From a virus: a DNA stretch of 48,552 nucleotides. This document shows positions 9,648-48,501 of the stretch, piece after piece (within the stretch, counting starts at the first letter, position 1; the number at the start of each line of letters is the position of its first letter). The stretch is from positions 1 to 48,552 of the IMG/VR virus record IMGVR_UViG_3300008113_000441; one strand, 5' to 3'. Below the pieces are notes generated by a model, which worked only from the letters and a program-made list of their open reading frames with translations, made no database searches and was not told the DNA's origin. The translations under genes and the position numbers were made by a program.

Positions 9648-10067
9648 TTATTTTTCTTTCAATTCACAGGATTTTTTACCAATATCATGACAATATTGTA
9701 CTTTAATTTTATCTTTCTTTTCAATATAAGCCTTTAAGAGACGATGATTACCGTCTAAGATCTTATCATCTGGAGAAAGAATAATTGGAAATTTAAAATC
9801 AGCTTTCAATGCTCTATCATAATGGTCAATATAATCACCGAAAGTTAATTTACCTTCCCAGGTCCAAGGATCTTCATCACGAGTTTTATTAACTAATTCA
9901 GAAACTGACATCTCTTCGATAGGATATTTGTCATGATCTTTCATAATTTTGAGCAAATCGCCCACATAATAGGATTTATCTTTATAATCAAAAGTACTAC
10001 CCTTGTCAAAAGCATAATCGGTAGCTTCAAGTAAAATTTTTATATATTTTTTAAGTAAACCTGCCAT
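9648..10067 (-). CDS. ParB/sulfiredoxin-fold nuclease-like protein with N-terminal tag
   Basis: The C-terminal part of this 139-aa protein has the ParB-N signature FPIILSPDDKILDGNHRLLK (about 94-113), with the core D-G-N-H-R. That fold is found in ParB CTPases, phage nucleases and sulfiredoxins. There is no helix-turn-helix domain, so this is a stand-alone domain rather than a partition protein. The first 15 residues (MAGLLKKYIKILLEA) form an amphipathic helix ending L-L-E-A, which fits the T4 prohead protease rule [LI]-x-E followed by a small residue. That raises the possibility that it is packaged in the head. Shine-Dalgarno is AAAGGA. Confidence 0.75.
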   Translation of the reverse strand: MAGLLKKYIKILLEATDYAFDKGSTFDYKDKSYYVGDLLKIMKDHDKYPIEEMSVSELVNKTRDEDPWTWEGKLTFGDYIDHYDRALKADFKFPIILSPDDKILDGNHRLLKAYIEKKDKIKVQYCHDIGKKSCELKEK

Positions 10068-10085: not shown

Positions 10086-10292
10086 TTATATATCTTTTTT
10101 TCTGAATTCTATTTCCCGATTTAGATACCAGAGAGCTTTCGTTAAATCATCTAAATCACTTTCGCCAGCTTTTTTACCAGCTCGAAGGACATATTTAATG
10201 ACATTGCCTAAGCTGAAATTCAGATCGTACATTTCAATGATGTCAATAGGAGTTACTGTGTTTTGGTAGTGTTGTGGGTTGGCTTTGTCCAT
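10086..10292 (-). CDS. DUF3310-type small phage protein
   Basis: This 68-aa protein has the hallmarks of the DUF3310 family found in many phages: NPQHYQ near the N-terminus, then IDIIEMYDLNFSLGNVIKYVLRAGKK and a C-terminal DLTKALWYLNREIE helix. The function is unproven; members are sometimes called nucleotide kinases without strong support. The start lies inside the end of the preceding gene (10243-10428) in another frame, giving a 50-bp overlap. The start has only a weak AGAAG Shine-Dalgarno. Confidence 0.85.
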   Translation of the reverse strand: MDKANPQHYQNTVTPIDIIEMYDLNFSLGNVIKYVLRAGKKAGESDLDDLTKALWYLNREIEFRKKDI

Positions 10293-10428
10293 TACGTTTT
10301 TTCTTCTTTCTGCGTTTGGAAATCATGTAAGGGGCTGGGGCGCTATAACCAGCGACGGCTCCACCGCCTAAAGTCATGGATTCCCTTAAAAGTTGTTCAT
10401 AAATTTTGAGTAATAAATTTTCGTTCAT
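10243..10428 (-). CDS. Small tagged basic protein, possible internal head protein
   Basis: This 61-aa protein starts at an ATG with Shine-Dalgarno AGGA. Residues 1-18 (MNENLLLKIYEQLLRESM) form an amphipathic tag ending L-R-E-S. A flexible TLGGGAVAGYSAPAPY stretch and a strongly basic KRRKKKKR run follow. The plan of tag, Gly/Ala-rich linker and basic tail recalls packaged DNA-binding internal proteins of T4-like phages. The 3' end overlaps the DUF3310 gene by 50 bp in a different frame; both frames look genuinely coding. The packaging role is inferred. Confidence 0.7.
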   Translation of the reverse strand: MNENLLLKIYEQLLRESMTLGGGAVAGYSAPAPYMISKRRKKKKRNGQSQPTTLPKHSNSY

Positions 10429-25110: not shown

Positions 25111-25362
25111 TTATAGTTTCCATTTAATACCTGATAGTTGATAAAATTCATCGGCTAGTTTTTTCTTGTTTTCGACTATCGTCATAATTTTAGATAAAGG
25201 GATATTTTGATTATGTAAAGAAGTGTATAAAGTTTTAGAAATATCAAGTAATTCGCTGAGTTTTTGTAGTTGTTGTTGATTGCCTTTAATTTCAATATTA
25301 ACAGCTTCACCTAGGATATATTTGGAAGCGACGTTATGAATAAGTAAATCGTGTTTTTTCAT
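25111..25362 (-). CDS. Small conserved-looking protein before the tape measure
   Basis: This 83-aa helical protein begins MKKHDLLIHNVASKYILGEA and ends with a Trp-containing SGIKWKL. An L-G-E-A sequence at residues 17-20 matches the [LI]-x-E rule of T4-like prohead protease sites, although here it is more likely incidental because the gene sits in the tail cluster. The gene lies between the gp51-like gene and the tape measure, a common place for tail-assembly chaperones. Shine-Dalgarno AGGA precedes the ATG. The function is unknown. Confidence 0.75.
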   Translation of the reverse strand: MKKHDLLIHNVASKYILGEAVNIEIKGNQQQLQKLSELLDISKTLYTSLHNQNIPLSKIMTIVENKKKLADEFYQLSGIKWKL

Positions 25363-30245: not shown

Positions 30246-33200
30246 TTAATCAATGGAATTTCTAACCTCAAAGTCAAGAGAAATAAATTCAATTGACTTA
30301 GTAGGTTGTAAATAAATCTTACCACGAATAGTATTATTCTCTACATCAATCTGTGTAGTAGTGGTAGTATCAATTTGTACCTTATATCTCTCAATCCCTT
30401 GTTGGGCTTGAATATTCGCCAATATTGGCTCAACCGCATTTGCAAACGCTTTCAATGTATCAGCACGATTAGGTTGGAACAAGAAGGTATTCGCAATCGC
30501 TTTCACCTTACGACGTACATAAATCAATAAACGTCTGACATTGATTCTATCCAAAGCTGATGGATTCTTTAGCAATGTCTTTTGTCCAAAGACGTGTACT
30601 TGATCACGACCAGCTGGAATATAAATTGGATTAATATCACTATCATACAATTCATCTAACTGCTCACGACTCATGGCAAACTCAGTCGCACTAGCATTCA
30701 CCAACCCACGATTAATACCTGCTGGGGCATACCATGGAGCATTCCCACCATTATCAGCACGACTCATCACGCCTAAGGCAGCAATACTAGGCGGTACCTT
30801 AATTGAACCCCCATTAGGCTTATTCAACATCACATCTGGGAAGAATGACGCAGCAAATGAAGTATCCATCCCACGACCACTAAATTCATCAATAGTTTGA
30901 CCGACTGATGGCTTATCAGTTGCATTAATAATAAACGCACCATTCGCATTCTTCTGTTCAATATCCATAATATACATTGTATCAAAACGATTTTCAGCCG
31001 CTTGCACTGCATAATTGGTGACTAAACGTTCTCTAATTCCCGGTACCACCAGCAATTGAATTTCAGCAGCTGCCTTATCAGTATAAACATCAATTCCTTG
31101 TTGATATGTTTCAATCACAGGACCTGTCTTAGATGTCTTTTGACCTTCCTTATAACAAGCAGCATCTTTCAAATAATGCTTATCTTCATCAAAAATATCT
31201 AAACCATCAAACCCGCCTTGCATGAAAAAGGAAAACGATAAATATTTATTGTTAGATAAACTTAAATCTTTAGTTAATCTAAAGAAACGACGAGCAGCGC
31301 CAGTAGGTACACTATCATTAGCTGTCACAGAATTTCTAATAAAAATTGCGTCACCCCACTTCTTATTGTCAATCTTCAAAGCAGCTCCACCTTGATGAGT
31401 AACTCTAATTTTCTCTAAATGGAAAAAATTAGGATCGTTTGTATAATCTAACTCTTCAGTTAAACTACCTTCTACAATTACAGGTGACCAATTATTCTTA
31501 AAATATTTAGTGTATGAAGTTAATGATTTATTAAAGGTTTGTTCAATATATTCTTTAAAACCATCAATTGTCACATCAATATTTTCTTTCAATGCAAATT
31601 TAACACCCCAAGGAACAATTTTAGCATCTTTAGGATCATCAGCGCCTTGAATAATTTTACCAATTGAACGTATCATAGGAATTGGTGGTTGTTGTAAATT
31701 ATGTAAATGTTGTGCATTTAACACTTGAGATTTATCATTAAATTTACTCTTTAAATGCAACTTTTTAATACCTGCAAAACCGCAAGGCAAAGTTTCAGCT
31801 GCAATATCACCTACGGCTACTTCACCTGATACTTCTACTCTTACAAATTTATTAGTCACAGGGTAAGAACCTTCTTCTTGTAAACCAGGTTTAGTAGCTT
31901 CAAAATCCCAATAAACCTTCTTATCACCAATTACACGAGCAATATAATTAGAAGCTGAGGGGTCTAAGGATAATCTCTTCCAGCTAGCTAATATTGAACT
32001 CTTTAAAGGATTGGAATCCCATTTTTGCAAAGTAATATCAAAAGTTCCAAATCCACCAAATTCTCCAGGTGTTAAATTACTAACAAGGATTCTAACTTGT
32101 TGATTACCAATTTCACCATCATCTAAGGCATGAAAACGGAATAATTTAAAAATACCATCACCCATACCGTCATTATTAAGACCGTCAGCCACAACACCAA
32201 AATCTTGACTCACTACCCATGGTGAAACAGCGGTTTGAAATTTATTGTCAAATTCTTCAAAAGAACGTGTATCATTCGCCACACAAAAAGCACCAGCAGT
32301 AATAACTAATGCATTATTCCCACTACTAGTAGTAATACCATTGACGCTTGAGGTAATAACATTTGAATGAATATCATAATAAGAATGTAAGTAATGACCT
32401 AATTCTTCTATTTTATGTGGATCGGTATTTAATACCTTATAAAAATAGTTTGATTTATTAATATCAAAAGAACACTCAATTGCTTTATTTTGACCATTAT
32501 AACCAATTAAAAATAATGTAAATGAAGAATCATTTACATTTAAATCGCCTATCTCATAACCAATTGAATCTTGAACATTTTTACCAACATCTGGAGCAGT
32601 CGTTTTTGATGCAATTGTTGATTTTAGGGAAGCCTTTACATTATGAGGGGTCATTAAAATACCTCTAACCAAAGGTATTGCTGTACTCGCATTAGAGTCA
32701 CTTATTGCAATTGTTAAGGCAGTTGCATCAGTCATATTTGCTTCATCAACAGTAATTGTAGCAGCTCCAACTGCATCAACTAATTGTACTAATTTGACAA
32801 TAGCTCCATCAACGCTGGCAGTGATTTTATAATCAGTAAATGCAGCATCAATTGATTTTTTGATTTCACAAGCCTGCAAAAAATTATCTGTTAACTTAGT
32901 TTTTAATGCATTAAATTTAACAACAACGTCATTATCATCATTATCAATTAAATCAGTAAAAGTTGTAATTAAAGCAGTCGTCGCAGCTTTTGCAGTTGTA
33001 AAAGTAGGAACATCATTAGCATTATCTAATGTCGTAATGCTATCACTAATAGCAGTTAAATTAGTTTGTAAATCTGTAATTAACGCTTCAATAACATCTA
33101 AATCCGAACCTATCACTTTTTTAATACTATCTAATACGATTGCAGCTTTTAAACTATTCCTGTTTGTAACTAAAGTGTTATATTTATTTTGTAAAGCAGT

Positions 33201-33968
33201 AAACGCAGCAGTAACAGGAGCAATTAGTGAAGTATGATCAGCCAAATCAGTCACTGCAGTTTGCAATGTTGTTTTTAAAGTTAATAGGTCTGCAAAATTA
33301 GTTGAAATACTTGTAATTAAATCAATCGTTGCTGTAGGTATCAAAATCTGAGAGGCTACATTGGTTACAGCGGCTTTAAAAGTAAATTGACGTGCAGTTT
33401 CATTAGCCCCGATAGGTGTAATTGAAAAATCATCTTCTGCGACAATCTTACTTTTATCAACAGTAATAGTTGCTGTTTCGAAACTTTGTAATTGCAAGCC
33501 AGCTTCGGTTAAATATTTTGAATTAGTTGCATCTTTTACAAAATGCCCTAAAATAAAACTTTTACCTTTTACGTCAAGAGTTGTATCTCCAGAAGTATTA
33601 ACAGCATTACTATTACTGATGACAACACCATCAGTTCCTAATTTTTTAGAACCGACGATGAAACCAGGTTCGGAACCGACGCCTAATAGACGCACAAAAG
33701 CCCCTTGCCCTGGATTACCACTCATCCATTCACTAACCGCCAAAGGCCCGAACAAATTGGAGTTTGAATCAAGACCTTTATCGCTAAAAGAGCCGAAGGT
33801 ATCTTGAAATTCTTGAATGTCGGCAAAAACTGTTGGTACGAATGCAGGACCACGCTTGGCACGCCCCACTACACCTGCCGGTGTCCCAGTTAGCACTCTA
33901 TTTACTGGTGTTGGCGCTGATAAATCAATTTCCCTTAAGGAAACTCTAGCTGAACCTTGTCCGGCCAT
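30246..33968 (-). CDS. Major tail sheath protein (gp18-like) with helical insertion
   Basis: This 1240-aa contractile sheath protein has the N-terminal GVVGRAKRGPAFVPTVFADI typical of gp18, FHALDDGEIGN, LSLDPSASNYIARVIGDKKV (about 655-675), an LPCGFAGI segment, MQGGFDGLDIFD and a conserved C-terminal domain with DRINVRRLLIYVRRKV, FQPNRADTL and KIYLQPTKSIEFISLDF. T4 gp18 is 659 aa. The extra length includes an Ala/Thr/Leu-rich helical block at about 215-375, set inside a small beta domain (FSITPIGANETARQFTFKAA on one side, YKITASVDGAIVKLVQ on the other). The other two paralogs lack this block. It has a very strong Shine-Dalgarno (ACAGGAG), so this is probably the main sheath. Confidence 0.92.
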   Translation of the reverse strand: MAGQGSARVSLREIDLSAPTPVNRVLTGTPAGVVGRAKRGPAFVPTVFADIQEFQDTFGSFSDKGLDSNSNLFGPLAVSEWMSGNPGQGAFVRLLGVGSEPGFIVGSKKLGTDGVVISNSNAVNTSGDTTLDVKGKSFILGHFVKDATNSKYLTEAGLQLQSFETATITVDKSKIVAEDDFSITPIGANETARQFTFKAAVTNVASQILIPTATIDLITSISTNFADLLTLKTTLQTAVTDLADHTSLIAPVTAAFTALQNKYNTLVTNRNSLKAAIVLDSIKKVIGSDLDVIEALITDLQTNLTAISDSITTLDNANDVPTFTTAKAATTALITTFTDLIDNDDNDVVVKFNALKTKLTDNFLQACEIKKSIDAAFTDYKITASVDGAIVKLVQLVDAVGAATITVDEANMTDATALTIAISDSNASTAIPLVRGILMTPHNVKASLKSTIASKTTAPDVGKNVQDSIGYEIGDLNVNDSSFTLFLIGYNGQNKAIECSFDINKSNYFYKVLNTDPHKIEELGHYLHSYYDIHSNVITSSVNGITTSSGNNALVITAGAFCVANDTRSFEEFDNKFQTAVSPWVVSQDFGVVADGLNNDGMGDGIFKLFRFHALDDGEIGNQQVRILVSNLTPGEFGGFGTFDITLQKWDSNPLKSSILASWKRLSLDPSASNYIARVIGDKKVYWDFEATKPGLQEEGSYPVTNKFVRVEVSGEVAVGDIAAETLPCGFAGIKKLHLKSKFNDKSQVLNAQHLHNLQQPPIPMIRSIGKIIQGADDPKDAKIVPWGVKFALKENIDVTIDGFKEYIEQTFNKSLTSYTKYFKNNWSPVIVEGSLTEELDYTNDPNFFHLEKIRVTHQGGAALKIDNKKWGDAIFIRNSVTANDSVPTGAARRFFRLTKDLSLSNNKYLSFSFFMQGGFDGLDIFDEDKHYLKDAACYKEGQKTSKTGPVIETYQQGIDVYTDKAAAEIQLLVVPGIRERLVTNYAVQAAENRFDTMYIMDIEQKNANGAFIINATDKPSVGQTIDEFSGRGMDTSFAASFFPDVMLNKPNGGSIKVPPSIAALGVMSRADNGGNAPWYAPAGINRGLVNASATEFAMSREQLDELYDSDINPIYIPAGRDQVHVFGQKTLLKNPSALDRINVRRLLIYVRRKVKAIANTFLFQPNRADTLKAFANAVEPILANIQAQQGIERYKVQIDTTTTTQIDVENNTIRGKIYLQPTKSIEFISLDFEVRNSID

Positions 33969-34051: not shown

Positions 34052-36154
34052 TTAAGCAAATGTTACGCCACTATTGGTCACAATAAAGTCCATCGCAATA
34101 AATTCTACCACTCGAGTGGGCACCACAATAATTTTACCACTCAAAATATTTTGGTCAGCTTCAGTCGGATCATTATTAATTACTACTCTAAAGTTCTCAA
34201 TCCCACTGCTTCTTTGAATATTAGATAACAAAGCATTTACCTTTGTCGCAAAGTCATTACGCACTGCAGCTGAATTTGGTTCAAACAATAAACGTTGAGC
34301 ATGTCTTTCCACACCACGTTTAATTTCAATCATCAAACGTCTAACATTCACACGATTTAAAGCTGTATTAGCCACTTGCAACGTCTTTTGACCAAAAATC
34401 ACATATTGATTAGAAGGGAATGTGGCGATAGGATTAATACGAGCTTCATACAAATCATCTCTATCATCAGCTCTTAATCTAACATTAACACCTTTAATAC
34501 GAGGATTTAAACCATTCTCAAAACCTGCAGGAGCAAACCAAGGTTGAATAACTCTAGAATTACCTTCACTACGTGCCAAAGCCCCTAATGCTACAATAGA
34601 TGAAGGACATTTTAAAGTTCTCTTTACGACAGCACCTACCACAGGATCTGATGCATCTTCCAACATCACATCTGGGAAATACGTCGCAACATAATTATTG
34701 TCAAAATTACGAGACCCTAATTTCACAATTGTATTAGTCACATCAGCTTTCTTAACGCCATCTACTTTTTCATCATATAAACGAATTCCGTCTTTACTAT
34801 AATGAGGTAAATCCATCAAATAAATAGCTTTACCATATTCTTCCACTTTACGAGCTGCATAATTGCAGATTAAAGGTTCACGAATACCAGGCAACAATAG
34901 AATATGTACCGTCGCAGTAGCAGGCTCTAACATTTGGTCAAGACCAGCAGTATAAGAAGCAATAATATTATTCGCAAAACCTGTACCTTGCATAGGAATT
35001 AAAGCGTTAGTAGCAGCTAATGCACTAGCAAAACCTGTAGGACTAGCTTTACCAGCCACCCCACCATCAACTGACATGTCTTCTGTACTTGAAGCTCTAT
35101 CATTCATATTCATGCTATCTTTATCAAAGATATTTAAACCGTCAAAACCACCAAACATAGGAGCTGTAAATTTAGCAACAACTGAAAACTTATTGAATTT
35201 TTCTTTATTTTCTGATAATATTGTGGCTAAAGTTATACGGGCTGTTTTGCCTGTATCTTCATTGTCGCTGGTATCAATTACATAAGTGGAATTATTATAA
35301 TCACCATTTCTAACATAGATAGCTTCTTTAAAAGTAGTGGCAACCGAAGACGATAAATCAGCGACTGCGATAGAAGTATATTGGGTTGATAAAGCAACAC
35401 GAGCCAAAGTAAATTTATTATTGTTAAAATCGTCAGCTTCGGTTGAATTTTCGGCATAAACAACATCACTACCTGCAATACCCATAAATTTACAATAATT
35501 TTCTACAATCTTATTGATAATTTCCCCAGCAGTACCACGAGTATTAGGTTTATCAATACTATCAATATTAAAATTCATCAAACCCCAATATTGCCCAGTG
35601 CTAACTGCCTCTTGAGAACCAGCTTGTCCTAAATAAGGATTATTAATAGAATAATCTCTACTACCACTAGTAATCTTAAAACGATAAGGTAAAGGTGGTA
35701 AAACAGCTGTATTTAAATTTGCATTGCCTGTTACCTCTGATGTTAATGTATTTCCTGTTTTTAAGACAGGAATACCTTTAAAACCGAAAGGCAAAGATTC
35801 ATCAGGGATTTCATTGTTTCTAACATCATCTGACATAATAATACGGATACGTGCTGACTGATTAGGATTTTCACCTTCAGTATAGAGACGTCTTTCATCA
35901 GTATTTTCAACATCAATATTATAAAAGGTCTTTTGGTCTCCAATCAATTTAGCTACATAATTGCTTGAAGATGGATCCAAACTACAATTTGCATATGATT
36001 CTAGAACAATAGGATTTTCATCAGTGTCATTTAAATCTCTTAATTCTACATTAAAAGTTCCAAATTTATAATTGACATCTGTTGAAGCTCTTAAATTACT
36101 GATACTAATCTTATATTTGCTGGCAGCATAAGCTCCATCATCAATCGCTTCAAG
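34052..36154 (-). CDS. Third tail sheath paralog, C-terminal part after a frameshift
   Basis: This frame encodes about 700 aa of a gp18-type sheath: LDPSSSNYVAKLIGDQKTFY, an LPFGFKGI segment, MFGGFDGLNIFDKDSMNMND, LLLPGIREPLICNYAARKVE, TYFPDVMLED and a C-terminal LNRVNVRRLMIEIKRGVE. No ATG or Shine-Dalgarno begins it: the first candidate start is a TTG at 35980 inside the conserved SLDPSSSNY motif, and the frame is open without a stop upstream to about 36168. It is the continuation of the fragment at 36091-36939 after a -1 shift. Joined, they give about 962 aa. See the finding on missing residues at the junction. Confidence 0.85.
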   Translation of the reverse strand, partial: LEAIDDGAYAASKYKISISNLRASTDVNYKFGTFNVELRDLNDTDENPIVLESYANCSLDPSSSNYVAKLIGDQKTFYNIDVENTDERRLYTEGENPNQSARIRIIMSDDVRNNEIPDESLPFGFKGIPVLKTGNTLTSEVTGNANLNTAVLPPLPYRFKITSGSRDYSINNPYLGQAGSQEAVSTGQYWGLMNFNIDSIDKPNTRGTAGEIINKIVENYCKFMGIAGSDVVYAENSTEADDFNNNKFTLARVALSTQYTSIAVADLSSSVATTFKEAIYVRNGDYNNSTYVIDTSDNEDTGKTARITLATILSENKEKFNKFSVVAKFTAPMFGGFDGLNIFDKDSMNMNDRASSTEDMSVDGGVAGKASPTGFASALAATNALIPMQGTGFANNIIASYTAGLDQMLEPATATVHILLLPGIREPLICNYAARKVEEYGKAIYLMDLPHYSKDGIRLYDEKVDGVKKADVTNTIVKLGSRNFDNNYVATYFPDVMLEDASDPVVGAVVKRTLKCPSSIVALGALARSEGNSRVIQPWFAPAGFENGLNPRIKGVNVRLRADDRDDLYEARINPIATFPSNQYVIFGQKTLQVANTALNRVNVRRLMIEIKRGVERHAQRLLFEPNSAAVRNDFATKVNALLSNIQRSSGIENFRVVINNDPTEADQNILSGKIIVVPTRVVEFIAMDFIVTNSGVTFA

Positions 36155-36939
36155 ACTGTGTTTGAGTTAGGATCTGATTTAATTGTGCATAAATCTTTAT
36201 CTACCGGGAAATGTAGATATAATAAATAACCATATTCTTCAATTGCATAAGGGTCTGTATTTAAAACCTTAGCAATGTAATTATTCGAATCCACATCTAA
36301 AGAAACAGTCACACTTCTTTCTTTAATAGTAGTATCATTATTACCAACAGTAACATTAATAATAAACTCACCTGCTGTAACTTTTCCTTTATCATTTAAA
36401 TTACCAGCTGTTTTAATTTGTAATTTACAATTCTTATGTAAAAAGAACATGGCTCTAATTAATTGACAACTAGACAAAGCAAAAGTAGTATTATTTAATG
36501 TAAACATACCACTTGCAAATTTTTCATTTGACTGAACAATATGTTCGGCAGCTAATAATTGTACGCCACCAAATCCGTTTGCAACTTCACATTTAAAACC
36601 TGCCGATGGGGCAGTCCCATTATTTTCTAACGCATCAGAACCTAAACCTAAAGTTCTAATAAATTGAACTGACGCCTCAAAACCCCCTGATTGCGTTGGA
36701 TCTTTTGATGTAAAAAATTCCGATACGGCATGCCCTGTCAATTTATCCTTTTGAATATCCCCAAAAACCTGCTTATAATCGTCCAAGGAATTCAGGATCA
36801 CAGGCACAAAGGCTGGACCCTTCTCGGCTGGACCGATAATACCGACCGGAGATGAATTGGGCTCTTTTTTTGGTGGTTTACTTTGTATCTCGATTTCTCT
36901 CTCGAAAAATCCAGGTGATTTAAATACTTGCTCACTCAT
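36091..36939 (-). CDS. Third tail sheath paralog, N-terminal part before a frameshift
   Basis: This ATG-started frame has a strong Shine-Dalgarno (AGGAG) and encodes the sheath N-terminus: FKSPGFFEREIEI, then SPVGIIGPAEKGPAFVPVIL (about 30-49), a SDYKQVFG-like segment, VSEFF, and SNNYIAKVLNTDPYAIEEYG. It matches the major sheath up to about residue 262 (SNTV), then reads about 20 unrelated residues to a stop. The correct sheath sequence continues in the -1 frame from 36154. Gene order (gp15, then this gene) is that of the normal sheath in T4-like phages. It is either a pseudogene, a sequence error or a truncated product. Confidence 0.8.
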   Translation of the reverse strand: MSEQVFKSPGFFEREIEIQSKPPKKEPNSSPVGIIGPAEKGPAFVPVILNSLDDYKQVFGDIQKDKLTGHAVSEFFTSKDPTQSGGFEASVQFIRTLGLGSDALENNGTAPSAGFKCEVANGFGGVQLLAAEHIVQSNEKFASGMFTLNNTTFALSSCQLIRAMFFLHKNCKLQIKTAGNLNDKGKVTAGEFIINVTVGNNDTTIKERSVTVSLDVDSNNYIAKVLNTDPYAIEEYGYLLYLHFPVDKDLCTIKSDPNSNTVLKRLMMELMLPANIRLVSVI

Positions 36940-38923: not shown

Positions 38924-40252
38924 TTATCCTATCAAGAAGGGACCATTAGGTATTGGTATCTTCTTTAATAAATTTTGTAATTGATCGGCCTGAGCATTTT
39001 GGGTTTCCAAGATTTTAGTCATGGTCATTTTATCTAACATCTCTTTTAACTGCGTTCTTAATTTCTCTTGATCGTCACGACCACTAGAAATCATATCACT
39101 ACCATTTAACTGCAAATCACCACCCGGAATTGGAATACTAGAAAACTTACTTCTCACAACACCTAACATTTCCTTGGCAATGGCTAAAGTAAACTCACGA
39201 ATCCAGTGACGGGCGATAGAATTTAAATTATCATAAGGTAAATTACCGTATGGCACATTACTGATATTAGAGACGCCGTTAATCTTATCATCAGGAATAT
39301 CAGGAGCAACAGGATTTGACGGAAAAGCAAATCTGATAAAAAGACTATACGGATGATCTTGTGTTGGTTTTGGATATATCCTGATGTTATTGCCGTGAAT
39401 TTCATAACTATAATTTGAACGACGAATACGATTACTAATATCTAATTGTCCAGCACGCAACACATCTTCAAAAACCGGTAATACATAGAAAACAGTTTCA
39501 GGAGTAAAGGATTCAAAAGCAAATTGATTATTTAAATAATTGATAGAAGAAGTAGTGTCAAAAAAACGATAAGCAGCTTGTGGGCTGAAATGCATGACTT
39601 CATAAATTCTAGGTTTGGTTTTTTGACGAGGGGTTTTATATAATGCAGCTAAATCCGGATCGTAAGCAAGATCGGTATCATCTAAAATAATATCTTTATA
39701 AAATACAAATGCCCCGTTATAAACAACACCTAAACCTAATTCATTAAATACACTTAATTCTAACCCATCCTTTTTATAAATTAATTCATCCGTAATATTA
39801 TAATCCTGTCGGCCTTGTTCTAATTTAATATATCCAATATAATGGTCAGTGCTGCCTCCAACACCTGCCTCAGTGGCATAAACCTCAGCTTTACGCATAA
39901 AAATATCAAAATTCTCACGTGGTAATTTACCTTCAACGCTATTAGGACCAACATTTTGTATTACTTGTTGTCCGTTAACAGTGATTGTTTTAGTAATACC
40001 ACCGACAGGAATGCCTAGTAAATTATGAATATGACTCTCTAACATGTTCTCATTAATAAAACGAGAGTATTCTAAAGTCGCTTCTTCAAAGGCAGCCCAA
40101 ATTTGTTTATTAGTTAATTCCACGCTGATAATATCATCCCCTAAACGTCGGCGTACAAACGTCAACATTTTATCAGCGTCCATTTGGAAATGCACCTCAT
40201 GATCATAAAAGCCAAAAGGCGTTGGATTACTGGTAGTGACAAAATTTGCCAT
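38924..40252 (-). CDS. Neck protein (gp13-like)
   Basis: This protein of about 442 aa matches T4 gp13. FVRRRLGDDIISVELTNKQI (near residue 25) corresponds to LRRLGAPIINVELTPDQI, and the C-terminal WIREFTLAIAKEMLGVVRSK, then PGGDLQLNGSDMI and NGPFLIG, correspond to WVKAYATALAKELNGQILAR, PGGVTIDGQRLI and FGILVG. The start is set at the ATG at 40252 (MANFVTTSN) because AGAGGA lies 9 nt before it; the ATG at 40270 lies inside a terminator hairpin. It is longer than T4 gp13 (309 aa), with an insertion in the middle. Confidence 0.85.
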   Translation of the reverse strand: MANFVTTSNPTPFGFYDHEVHFQMDADKMLTFVRRRLGDDIISVELTNKQIWAAFEEATLEYSRFINENMLESHIHNLLGIPVGGITKTITVNGQQVIQNVGPNSVEGKLPRENFDIFMRKAEVYATEAGVGGSTDHYIGYIKLEQGRQDYNITDELIYKKDGLELSVFNELGLGVVYNGAFVFYKDIILDDTDLAYDPDLAALYKTPRQKTKPRIYEVMHFSPQAAYRFFDTTSSINYLNNQFAFESFTPETVFYVLPVFEDVLRAGQLDISNRIRRSNYSYEIHGNNIRIYPKPTQDHPYSLFIRFAFPSNPVAPDIPDDKINGVSNISNVPYGNLPYDNLNSIARHWIREFTLAIAKEMLGVVRSKFSSIPIPGGDLQLNGSDMISSGRDDQEKLRTQLKEMLDKMTMTKILETQNAQADQLQNLLKKIPIPNGPFLIG

Positions 40253-40312
40253 AAAAAAAAATCCTCTCATCGATATTCTATTATTTCTAATTATGAATAT
40301 CTAGAGAGGATT
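40253..40312 (-). terminator. Terminator-like hairpin overlapping the gp13 ribosome site
   Basis: AATCCTCTC (40260-40268) pairs with GAGAGGATT (40304-40312), and an inner GATATTC (40272-40278) pairs with GAATATC (40295-40301). In the leftward direction nine uridines follow (40253-40261), right up to the gp13 ATG. The 3' arm carries AGAGGA, the Shine-Dalgarno of gp13. The loop holds TAGAAATA (40282-40289), 7/8 to the T4 late box. This could be a terminator for the structural genes above, a translational switch for gp13, or both. Confidence 0.7.
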
Positions 40313-41791: not shown

Positions 41792-41980
41792 CTATTCCGC
41801 TGGACTTTCTTCACCACCCGACGCAACTTCTTCTTCAGTCACCTCCTGCGGCTTCAACACATCAATCGCCTCCTGCAAGGCATGCGCTTCCTTCAAAGAA
41901 AAGGCCCCACGCTTCTGAGCCAACTGAACTGCTGCTAATAATAAATTGACACTACCGACTTGTTCTGGAGTTAATTCCAT
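41792..41980 (-). CDS. Small acidic helical protein
   Basis: This 62-aa protein has a helical N-terminus (MELTPEQVGSVNLLLAAVQL, then AFSLKEAHALQEAIDVL) and a disordered acidic tail ending GGEESPAE. Short proteins of this kind are common in T4-like marine phages; no function is known to me. Its coding region is unusually GC-rich for the window and faces the rightward gene at 42062 across an 81-bp AT-rich gap, which probably carries divergent promoters. The Shine-Dalgarno AAAGGAT lies before the ATG. Confidence 0.7.
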   Translation of the reverse strand: MELTPEQVGSVNLLLAAVQLAQKRGAFSLKEAHALQEAIDVLKPQEVTEEEVASGGEESPAE

Positions 41981-42061: not shown

Positions 42062-42538
42062 ATGTTTAAATTTATTCTCCTCCTCACCCTACTCCTCAGC
42101 CCCCAACTCTGGGCCCAACAAACCGTCACCGACACCAATCAAAACGGCCTACCCGATCAACACGAAAGCGCCGTCCTCAAAGCCGCCGAGCGCATCTGCA
42201 ACATGCCCGGAATTCAAGATGTGTTAGTTAAACAAATTGAAGATTTAAAAGGCGATAAAGTCATATTACAAAAACAAATCGAAGATTTAAAAAATAAATT
42301 AGACTCTTCTGTAAAAGAAAATATCAATCAATGTGATGCCAAATTAAAAGATGCTCAAGTTGAAAAAGATAAGGTCTTAGCCGATAAGGAAAAAGTGCAT
42401 TTAAACCTAACTGATAAATCACAAGAATTAGCCTTATGCAAAGCTAAATTAGATGAAAAAGCCTTTGATAGATTAATCAGCGCCGGGATTGGTATTGTCG
42501 GCTCAACCGGATGTTTATTATATCAAGAATTAAGATAA
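42062..42538 (+). CDS. Secreted coiled-coil protein with signal peptide
   Basis: This 158-aa protein has a signal peptide (residues 1-19, FKFILLLTLLLSPQLWAQ) with likely cleavage near WA|QQ. A long coiled coil (about 45-135) follows with heptads such as QIEDLKGDKVILQKQIEDLK, then a C-terminal weakly hydrophobic Gly-rich segment (AGIGIVGSTGCLLY). No lipobox Cys follows the signal. It could act in the periplasm in lysis (spanin-like) or host interaction. It opens the only rightward operon here, with Shine-Dalgarno AAGGAT. GC content drops sharply near 42210: I count 79 of 130 G+C at 42081-42210 and 19 of 90 at 42211-42300. Confidence 0.8.
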   Translation: MFKFILLLTLLLSPQLWAQQTVTDTNQNGLPDQHESAVLKAAERICNMPGIQDVLVKQIEDLKGDKVILQKQIEDLKNKLDSSVKENINQCDAKLKDAQVEKDKVLADKEKVHLNLTDKSQELALCKAKLDEKAFDRLISAGIGIVGSTGCLLYQELR

Positions 42539-42556
42539 AAATTTACATGAATTAAG

Positions 42557-42600
42557 TCTCTCGAGAATAAATACATATTATACTTAAATAATTCGAGGGA
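42557..42600 (+). promoter_or_regulatory. Stem-loop hiding the ribosome site, with late-type box in the loop
   Basis: TCTCTCGA (42557-42564) pairs with TCGAGGGA (42593-42600), an 8-bp stem with one G-U pair. The 3' arm contains GAGGGA, the Shine-Dalgarno of the ATG at 42607. The loop holds AATAAATA (42566-42573), a 7/8 match to the T4 late box. A transcript starting there would lack the 5' arm and leave the ribosome site open. Confidence 0.5.
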
Positions 42601-42606
42601 ATTGAA

Positions 42607-43095
42607 ATGTCTAATGAACACGGGATGGGGATGGGTCATAATTATTCCTCATCTGATATAAATAATTTTATTATGCAACAATTAAGTGGCTTATCTAATT
42701 TAATCAAAGAGAATAATGCTGAAATGCAAATTATTAGACGTGAATTATCTGAATTAAATGCAAAATTTGCAGCCAAAGATAACATGATTAATAATATCGA
42801 TAACTGGAAAAAAGACGTCTCGCAGATTGTGACGTTAAATGATTTAAATGAAATGAAAAACCAGAAATTCATGATTTCAGTGTTACAAAATAAAATGGAT
42901 CAACAGTCTTCTGAAATAGCTAATTTACAGACGCAACATATTAATGATGAGGTAAAGACTAGTCATAAATTAAAAGAAGTAGATGAACAGTTAAAAGACT
43001 TAAATGATTTTAAAATTAAGGCCTTTACGATTTTTAGTGTTGTACAAATAATAATGACAGTAGCACTTTTTTGGAAAGAAATGTTCAGTAAATAA
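42607..43095 (+). CDS. Tail-anchored coiled-coil membrane protein
   Basis: This 162-aa protein has a Gly/Met/His-rich N-terminus (residues 4-12), a long coiled coil (about 25-140) and a single C-terminal transmembrane helix (AFTIFSVVQIIMTVALFW, about 140-157) with a basic end. This is the layout of XhlA/hemolysin-like phage proteins, which bind membranes and can help holins. A role in lysis or superinfection control is possible but unproven. Translation may be gated by the hairpin at 42557-42600. Confidence 0.75.
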   Translation: MSNEHGMGMGHNYSSSDINNFIMQQLSGLSNLIKENNAEMQIIRRELSELNAKFAAKDNMINNIDNWKKDVSQIVTLNDLNEMKNQKFMISVLQNKMDQQSSEIANLQTQHINDEVKTSHKLKEVDEQLKDLNDFKIKAFTIFSVVQIIMTVALFWKEMFSK

Positions 43096-43130
43096 TATAT
43101 AATAGAATAATAATAACAAAAGGATAAAAA

Positions 43131-43385
43131 ATGAGAATTTCGTCAAATGATTTAAGACAAATTATTATGGAAGAATATACCCGTGCAAAGAGAGTTAATA
43201 GATTGCATGAAGGAACCCAATATAACCCAATTCAATTGGATGCTAATGCTTTAAGAAGTATTATTCTTGAAGAATCTTATAAAAATCTCCAAGAGAGACG
43301 TAGTTTAAATGAAGGTCGTTCTGTTAAAATGACACCACAAATGTTGCGTCAGATGATTTTAGAAGAAAGTCGTAGATATCGTTAA
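43131..43385 (+). CDS. Protein made of three copies of an LRxIIxEE motif
   Basis: This 84-aa protein is built from three repeats about 34-38 residues apart: SSNDLRQIIMEEY, DANALRSIILEES and TPQMLRQMILEES. The first two units end in RLHEG and SLNEG, both L-x-E-G. The motif equals the N-terminal tag on other proteins here, and each unit has a possible [LI]-x-E cleavage point, as used by T4-type prohead proteases. It may be a packaged internal protein, a protease substrate or an inhibitor. Shine-Dalgarno AAAGGAT. Its stop is one base from the stop of the convergent gene at 43387. Confidence 0.7.
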   Translation: MRISSNDLRQIIMEEYTRAKRVNRLHEGTQYNPIQLDANALRSIILEESYKNLQERRSLNEGRSVKMTPQMLRQMILEESRRYR

Positions 43386-45882: not shown

Positions 45883-48501
45883 TTAAACATCTATAAAAAT
45901 ATTTTTATTTTGAGTTAAGAAATCTAAGCCTGACAATTTAAATAAATCTATTAATTGAATAGGATTCAAATCAGGATCTTTTTTATTAGCAATTTGTTTA
46001 TTTAAAAATTGAAAGCTTTCAATTGTAAAATCTAAATTACCTTTTTCATTAATTTCAATATTATCATATTTAATAGAAATTTTTTCTTCAGTACTAATAT
46101 TAATGTATTCTCTTAAATCAAAAATTGAAAAATCACGTAATTCTTCAGATATATTCAAAGGTTCTTCAATTTTAAAGTCTTTATTATTATTTTCTTGCTT
46201 ATTTAAAGTCATAATATAGTCCCATAATTTAGGTTCATTAAAAATTTTGTCATATAAATTGGAAATATCAATTTCATATAAAAAATAATCATTTTCAAAT
46301 AATTCAGATTTAATACCTGTTGAATTCTTATTTGTCAATAATACAATTGTATCAATTAAAGGAATCTTTTTTAAAGCAACCTCTATTTTAGTAAAAATTA
46401 ATTTTCTTTGTAATTCAAAATCAATATCATCATTTTTTTCCGGCTCCTGTTCCTGAATTGGAACTTCATCAATCATAGAAGACATTTTAAAATTTGCGGT
46501 GCTGTTACCCTTATTCTTATTTTTATTAGACGAAGGATTATTATGATTAGGACTGTAATGCTCTTGTAAAGATTTTAAAATTAAACCAATTTTTTCTTCC
46601 CTTTTTTTGCTAGAATAAAAACCTACAAGTTTATCATTAACTGATAACATTTTATCAGACAGTAATTTTCCTGTTTTAGTTATAATAGATAAATCATCGA
46701 AATTTTTTACAATATCTTCTAAACCTATTTTTTCAGAACTATATTTTTGTTCTTTCATTGTTTTTAAATTGACATCTTCAAGACAAATTTTATACATATT
46801 TAACAAAAATTTATTACCACGATAACTAATCTCTTGTGATGTAGTATTATTCAAAATCTTTTCTGAAAATCTGTTTAAAAAATAAATAATCATATCAATT
46901 AATTTAACATGAAAAGTTAGTAAAAATAAATTTTTTCTAAAACTTGTTTTTTCAACTTCATCTGTTGATAAACGTAAAGGATCGTTTAAAATTTCACTTT
47001 CTTGTTTACGTTTTGTTTCTAAATATTTTTTATAATTAGTTGTTAACGTATCTAAATTCGTGCTTAAATTAAAAATTCCTTGATTTTTATAAAAAACTTT
47101 AATATTTTCAAATACTTTTGGATCTTGTTTAATTTTATTAAAAGATTTAACAGCTTCAGGAAAAATAGGTTGTATTTTTTTAAAACTTGAAATAAACTGT
47201 GTAATACTTTTAATTTCGTTTTCTTCAAATTTATCTTGATTTTTTTCAAAATCAGTCATTGCGCTAGTAAAATTTTCATTAATATCCTCTAAAATAGAAG
47301 GATTTTCAATTAATTCTTGCGGTGTATAATTTTTATAACTTTTTAATCTTTTTATTGAACTTTTTAAAACCTCAATATCTTTTTTGTCAGTAGTATCTCC
47401 TTCTTTTACTTCTAAATTTTCAATTGATTTAGCAATTAAGTCAGAAATACTTGTCGCGTCTTTTTTGTTATTTTCAATTGTTTTTTCATCATCATCATCA
47501 ATATCTGATAATACAGTATTTAAAATAAAATCACGAGATATATTACGATTTAAAATCAGCTCATCTTTCGTTAAATTTAGTTCTTTCTCAACTTTTTTAT
47601 CATCATTAATTTTATCAACATCATTCGCTAATTTTTTCATATGTGGATTAGAGGGATTATATACAATGGGAGATTTACCTGAACGAGGATCACTTGTTAG
47701 AAGCGCCATTCTCATCAGCTCAATATTTCGTTCATCCGATAAAAAATTAATAACTTCAGTAGATGCGTTATATAATTCGTTACAAGCTTTTTTATAAGTA
47801 GGAGAATCCCTTAAAAAACCTTCATGAGTTGCATCAACTGCTTTTCCAACAAAATTAAGAGTTGATGCAATTCCTTGCCCAAAACTAATAACACCGGATT
47901 TAAGAAGTTCATAATTTCCATAAACGGTAATACGTAAAGTATTTGGTATTGCGTTCTCTAAAAAATTATCAATTAATTTTGAATCTAAAGTATAACCTCC
48001 ATTTGTTTCACGAAATACAGGGTTATTCCCGATAAGAATATTCTTTATCGCTAATCCAGCCCCTGTAGCCCCATTAGGTAACTTTGAACTCATTTTTACA
48101 AATTTAACATGCTTTTTATATTGTTCACTATTAAATTTTAAAAGTGAAGAAAAAGCATTAACAAAAACATTTAAACCATTTTCAATGTAGCTAGGATTAT
48201 TTTCTAATTCAAGCGCTGCAGCTTGGGCTTTTTCTAAATTCTCATAAGCTTTTTCAAATAAATCATATAAATCATTCTCATATTCAACACCTTTTTTGCC
48301 TTTATCAATTGTAATTTCGTTATTATTAATTGAAGCAAAATTATCATTTTTTACTTTATAAGGTGTAGTATCTCTACCTTGTCTACTAACTTTATTAACT
48401 GATGAATAATTTTGATTAGGTTTTTCTTTACTTTGTAAATTTTCAAAATCATTCTCCGCAGGAGGTCCTTCAAATAAAAATCTGTTTAATTTTTTTTTCA
48501 T
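45883..48501 (-). CDS. Large orphan protein with an N-terminal tag
   Basis: This 872-aa protein is very rich in Lys, Asn, Asp and Glu, mostly helical, with a low-complexity Asn/Lys/Ser stretch near 690-705. It begins MKKKLNRFLFEGPPAENDF, a basic helical tag with L-F-E-G that matches the [LI]-x-E plus small-residue cleavage rule. No enzyme motif, signal peptide or membrane segment is obvious; the FISFGQGI-like segment near 205 is only weakly hydrophobic. With a T4-type late box 42 bp upstream, it may be a packaged internal or ejected virion protein. I do not recognise it. Confidence 0.7.
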   Translation of the reverse strand: MKKKLNRFLFEGPPAENDFENLQSKEKPNQNYSSVNKVSRQGRDTTPYKVKNDNFASINNNEITIDKGKKGVEYENDLYDLFEKAYENLEKAQAAALELENNPSYIENGLNVFVNAFSSLLKFNSEQYKKHVKFVKMSSKLPNGATGAGLAIKNILIGNNPVFRETNGGYTLDSKLIDNFLENAIPNTLRITVYGNYELLKSGVISFGQGIASTLNFVGKAVDATHEGFLRDSPTYKKACNELYNASTEVINFLSDERNIELMRMALLTSDPRSGKSPIVYNPSNPHMKKLANDVDKINDDKKVEKELNLTKDELILNRNISRDFILNTVLSDIDDDDEKTIENNKKDATSISDLIAKSIENLEVKEGDTTDKKDIEVLKSSIKRLKSYKNYTPQELIENPSILEDINENFTSAMTDFEKNQDKFEENEIKSITQFISSFKKIQPIFPEAVKSFNKIKQDPKVFENIKVFYKNQGIFNLSTNLDTLTTNYKKYLETKRKQESEILNDPLRLSTDEVEKTSFRKNLFLLTFHVKLIDMIIYFLNRFSEKILNNTTSQEISYRGNKFLLNMYKICLEDVNLKTMKEQKYSSEKIGLEDIVKNFDDLSIITKTGKLLSDKMLSVNDKLVGFYSSKKREEKIGLILKSLQEHYSPNHNNPSSNKNKNKGNSTANFKMSSMIDEVPIQEQEPEKNDDIDFELQRKLIFTKIEVALKKIPLIDTIVLLTNKNSTGIKSELFENDYFLYEIDISNLYDKIFNEPKLWDYIMTLNKQENNNKDFKIEEPLNISEELRDFSIFDLREYINISTEEKISIKYDNIEINEKGNLDFTIESFQFLNKQIANKKDPDLNPIQLIDLFKLSGLDFLTQNKNIFIDV

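Follow-up and report, generated by a model that had tools for sequence, protein, structure and literature searches.

Our analysis revealed a gene for a small tandem-repeat protein which, judged from sequence, is probably a component of the prohead core, recruited by its own helices and serving as a substrate of the phage's gp21-type protease. The gene lies on a virus record of 48.6 kb, called the window in the following, by which we mean the whole stretch of 48,552 nucleotides that was analysed. The window is AT-rich (32% G+C) and encodes a helicase, a UvsX-like recombinase, single-strand binding and polymerase genes, a large ribonucleotide reductase, and the baseplate hub, tail tube and tail sheath. 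Several sheath-like genes stand in a row: 30246-33968 and 36091-36939 match tail sheath profiles, and the C-terminus of a third long ORF in between (34052-35980) is similar. The core-substrate reading is based on the repeats of the protein, the conservation of its protease sites, synteny, purifying selection, the protease and capsid genes of its relatives, and the occurrence of the same unit on a core-type protein.

The gene occupies positions 43131 to 43385 (plus strand), starts with ATG shortly downstream of a Shine-Dalgarno-like AAGGAT (43120-43125, plus strand) and encodes an 84-aa product, MRISSNDLRQIIMEEYTRAKRVNRLHEGTQYNPIQLDANALRSIILEESYKNLQERRSLNEGRSVKMTPQMLRQMILEESRRYR. An earlier interpretation made from the letters alone (the sequence-only reading) had described it as three LRxIIxEE-type units, the first two followed by L-x-E-G, and this description is confirmed by the ORF, in which the unit cores LRQIIMEE, LRSIILEE and LRQMILEE begin at residues 8, 41 and 72. 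A model predicted from the family alignment (mean pLDDT 75, pTM 0.31) has three helices at residues 5-22, 38-63 and 69-83. Specifically, unit 1 (residues 1-19, MRISSNDLRQIIMEEYTRA, 43131-43187) is recognised by the unit profile and coincides with the first predicted helix; it is followed in the linker past that helix by the first putative protease site, RLHE-G (LHE/G at residues 25-28, 43203-43214). Unit 2 (residues 34-52, IQLDANALRSIILEESYKN, 43230-43286), likewise found by the profile, lies inside the second predicted helix, at the end of which stands the second putative site, SLNE-G (LNE/G at residues 59-62, 43305-43316). Unit 3 (residues 65-83, VKMTPQMLRQMILEESRRY, 43323-43379), supported by the profile and by family comparison, forms the end of the protein and carries no L-x-E-G. 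All of these features are on the plus strand, and both sites are of the conserved LxE[GSA] form. According to the predicted model and the sequence, the protein is made of helices and contains no folded cargo. Inspection of the sequence gave no evident signal or membrane segment; it showed neither an N-terminal transmembrane (TM) segment with a coiled coil nor a lipoprotein signal.

The family to which this protein belongs was opened by synteny. Contigs sharing the neck or head-tail adaptor gene, located in the window at 38924-40270 (minus strand; phrog_211, E 4.6e-11), carry in the same place an ORF of 59-90 aa with two or three units, and a further scan added the members L108 and L115/L117. 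In total there are 20 distinct members on separate IMG/VR contigs of uncultured, mostly marine T4-like phages. All of them keep at least two units; homologues lacking the repeat, which the sequence-only reading had named as contrary evidence, were not among them. The family gene lies about 3 kb from the neck gene, between a gene for a TM/coiled-coil protein and a small 'MxLTPEQV' gene. The latter ('MQLSPEQVQSVN...') flanks family genes as a rule, and its counterpart in the window, the 62-aa gene MELTPEQVGSVNLLL... at 41792-41980 (minus strand), is a conserved gene that in relatives flanks the unit gene on its other side. Pairwise dN/dS was about 0.15-0.55 in the pairs for which it was computable, with dS saturated in several pairs, and the family is under purifying selection. 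Every member has a pI above 9. The commonest design consists of two units and an Arg-rich tail (e.g. SRRRRARRARR or SRRRRLDRY), so the three tandem repeats first noted in the window protein are not the general architecture; they hold for this protein and for those of L005 and L006, in which a third unit replaces the tail. One member, L038:8379-8615, carries a near-exact tandem duplication of its second unit (VKVTPEYLNRLIKEEYS twice), which shows a way for the unit number to grow.

The family is absent from existing catalogues, with no Pfam or PHROG family covering the protein. No Pfam or PHROG family matched more than two of 18 members at E values up to 1, and none did so consistently; the alignment of these 18 members was too diverse for use in scanning. 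When the window protein itself served as the query, viral contigs yielded no relatives, and named phages gave only DNA-ligase matches that were dismissed as chance. Searches of named phages with other family members and with the 92-aa core-type protein described below gave no relative, and neither did a search of genome contigs. Six literal spellings of the helix motif were all absent from the literature searched. In the Microcystis phage Mel-JY01, a gene annotated as RpsU (ribosomal protein S21; L106:2219-2446) lies in the head cluster between the protease gene and the scaffold and capsid genes; it was considered as a relative and rejected, having neither a unit nor a site.

Sites of the form cut by gp21 are strongly enriched in the family. 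We counted 44 occurrences of the pattern [LI]xE[GAS] in the family, compared with 4.1 expected from residue shuffles, and 19 of the 20 members have it. The control spacings [LI]E[GAS], [LI]xxE[GAS] and [LI]xxxE[GAS] were found 2, 6 and 2 times (about 4 expected), and the reversed pattern 9 times (4.1 expected). Ten different residues fill the middle position, while the position after the glutamate is S, G or A only, as the pattern itself dictates. L038 lacks a strict site, having FQE-S only, and L017 has a single one. In most members unit 1 together with LxE[GSA] makes up a short N-terminal segment closed by a gp21-form site. The window ORF has four sites against 0.26 expected and is the most enriched of the 45 window genes; two of its four sites are LEE-S within helices and are weaker. 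The count singles out substrates of known type: the scaffold-like protein tops the enrichment in two relatives (G003, 13 vs 3.3; G004, 12 vs 2.3), and T4 gp22 has eight such sites.

Neither a protease nor a capsid protein of its own is seen in the window because the contig ends before any head cluster; like several relatives, it is a fragment without one. However, a gp21-type protease (PF03420) is encoded by G003, G004, G015 and G017, and a gp23 capsid protein (PF07068) by G003, G004, G005 and G015, with G017 sharing the N-terminus of that capsid protein. Three of these relatives (G003, G004 and G017) encode both a family member and the protease. The capsid proteins of the relatives have VLRE-S, LLRE-A or VLKE-S shortly ahead of the conserved domain, a position resembling that of LTE-A at 63 in T4 gp23, and a long scaffold-like protein adjoins the capsid gene. 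The family gene lies outside the run of portal, protease, scaffold and capsid genes, on the neck side of the capsid gene. The portal gene of G004 (L074, 74794-77940) encodes 1048 aa, compared with 664-675 aa in G003 and G017, and holds an intein-like insert starting CIAGDTLIATPNGYTE.

The same three relatives also encode, two or three genes from the protease, a core-type protein of 92-96 aa whose N-terminus is the repeat unit; it starts with VEVTPSTIRRLVREERARLNET in G004 and with KKLTPRVLRRIIAEESAKLNET in G017. The unit profile matched this protein in G017, which had been left out of profile training, at E 1.5e-6, in G003 at 6e-4 and in G004 weakly at 0.01.

It had been suggested that other, unrelated proteins of the window are capped by the same motif. 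This did not hold there, as the unit pattern is absent from all other window ORFs and the profile found no other convincing window protein, but the same claim proved correct for related contigs. In G018 (L119, L130, L131; about 17.6-23.2 kb) about nine different small proteins begin with M(K/R)ITKxxLRRII(K/R)E or a close variant, one of which holds a second, internal copy of the unit, and we regard this run as a candidate row of head-cargo genes. In G004 (L078, 146-152 kb) several different clustered genes start with MRITExKLRxxIR, and two of them have a gp21-form site right after the cap (VLAE-A and IIIE-S). An excess of [LI]xE[GAS] within the first 27 residues was seen in G001 (22 proteins vs about 7 expected) and G002 (14 vs 5.4). 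A second style of N-terminal tag occurs on different proteins of G001 (L082-L087), e.g. MLISDESLLRKYINNLIFE-G and MEILRKYINLLFE-S. Within the window, looser N-terminal endings of this kind are found in four proteins, with about 1.7 expected: ILLE-A (9648-10067), LLRE-S (10243-10428), FLFE-G (45883-48501) and ILGE-A (25111-25362).

In T4, gp21 cuts after L/I-X-E (PMC9026906), internal proteins carry N-terminal targeting propeptides of 10-19 aa, and gp22 and gp67 are broken down to fragments, most of which leave the head (PMC9026906, PMC7411985). The propeptides and the fragmentation of gp22 and gp67 provide a precedent for reading the unit protein as a core protein that is cut. Each LRxIIxEE unit would form an amphipathic helix that attaches to the core during assembly, in the manner of a T4 capsid-targeting propeptide, and with two or three units in tandem the protein itself would be the cargo. 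The protease, active in the closed prohead, would cut past each L-x-E, ahead of G, S or A, which would separate the helices and end their grip on the core; most fragments would then exit the head, and the protein would be a throw-away. Cutting would in most members also free a C-terminal peptide that is Arg-rich and very basic; the window subgroup has a third helix in its place. We infer from these comparisons that the protein binds the core and is cleaved, and what becomes of its fragments. The earlier proposals of a targeting-like motif with a prohead-protease site and of a precursor yielding short peptides are well supported by comparison. The other roles offered at that time, namely decoy substrate, scaffold linker and competitive inhibitor, found no specific support.

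It is possible, but doubtful, that the protein is a polyprotein-like head precursor, in which an Arg-rich, protamine-like peptide enters the prohead on the tandem targeting helices and is freed there by the protease to neutralise or condense the packaged genome; in the window subgroup a third helix would have replaced the basic tail.

Several observations weigh against the core-substrate reading: the position of the gene outside the portal-to-capsid run, the scarcity of strict sites in L038 and L017, the lack of detected homology to T4 gp67, and the company that the gene keeps. In the window it is preceded by a gene for a protein with a signal-peptide-like N-terminus (42062-42538, plus strand) and one for a protein with a coiled coil and a C-terminal hydrophobic segment (42607-43095, plus strand), both defined as ORFs and by the loci of relatives. 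The loci examined preserve the succession of signal-peptide gene, TM/coiled-coil gene and unit gene, which in relatives points the same way as the neck gene. In G017 the TM/coiled-coil protein has its hydrophobic segment at the N-terminus and is weakly similar to Rz-like spanins (E 0.004). Furthermore, the three genes (42062-43385) are inverted together in the window relative to their flanks, when compared with L005, L006 and other relatives. This inversion is a feature of the lineage and not an assembly error, because across the cassette edge the window is collinear with L002 and L003. No shared inverted repeat of at least 10 bases, as might mark a flippable segment, was found at the cassette edges, and TATAAATA sites were not more frequent than by chance, with none immediately 5' of the unit gene. 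The preserved gene order, the spanin similarity and the joint inversion would suit a unit protein that works with an envelope-type cassette in lysis or in membrane-linked head assembly, the LxE sites being secondary. We consider this unlikely, since the unit protein itself has no evident signal or membrane segment, its conservation is highest in the targeting helix and the gp21-form site, and the unit recurs on the core-type protein near the protease.

Of the explanations that stay within the head, an uncut adaptor appears rather improbable. Its tandem core-binding helices would connect scaffold molecules with one another or bring in other tagged proteins or the protease, with cleavage serving for disposal only, as the helices joined by linkers and the whole unit duplicated in L038 might suggest; however, the sites are strongly conserved, which speaks for the importance of cutting, and no partner is known. 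Several sites of cleavable form in so short a protein could also be read as a means of holding up the prohead protease, by competitive inhibition or as a decoy, but a cleavable substrate makes a weak inhibitor, the sites are of the form of ordinary substrates and there is no specific sign of inhibition, so that this explanation is very improbable. A short ORF in an AT-rich genome raises the question of a chance reading frame or a low-complexity resemblance. The chance of this is negligible, and conservation refutes it: there are syntenic homologues in about 20 contigs, with dN/dS in the range given above where computable, and the sites are conserved.

If the unit protein is indeed a core substrate, the targeting helix followed by L-x-E and G, S or A would be a testable sequence code for the head cargo of uncultured T4-like phages. 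Such a code can help to pick out virion cargo where the proteins are unknown, for example in the tagged gene rows of G004 and G018. The stand-alone tandem form offers a compact test object for the joint action of core signal and protease sites.

Compared with known systems, the family shares with the targeting sequences of T4 IPI, IPII, IPIII and Alt a short N-terminal segment closed by L/I-x-E, which in T4 is removed by gp21 (PMC9026906). However, the T4 sequences occur once per cargo protein, attached to a separate cargo domain, whereas the units of the family are of other sequence, stand in tandem and make up most of a protein that lacks folded cargo and consists of two or three helices, mostly with an Arg-rich tail. 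Like the family, T4 gp22 has several L/I-x-E sites, and it is cut into peptides as predicted for the family, but it is a large scaffold, and the phages with the family have their own long scaffold-like protein beside the capsid gene. The inner-body and ejection proteins of phiKZ and SPN3US have propeptides that are removed by a gp21-like protease after x-x-E, with several sites each (PMC9026906, PMC7411985); unlike the family, these are propeptides of large proteins, with the motif S/A-x-E or A-x-E. T4 gp67 (PIP, the prohead core protein) is similar in its size of about 80 aa, its neighbourhood of head genes, its helical part with L-I-E sites and its nature as a gp21-type substrate, which is predicted for the family. 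Homology between gp67 and the family was not detectable (hhalign probability 0.3%), and gp67 is strongly acidic (35 D/E, 10 K/R) whereas family members are basic. Furthermore, gp67 has no tandem units and its gene adjoins the portal gene, between portal and gp68/protease, whereas the family gene is on the neck side of the capsid gene. Membership in the gp67 family is not borne out, since homology was not detected and charge and gene position differ, but the family probably acts like T4 gp67.
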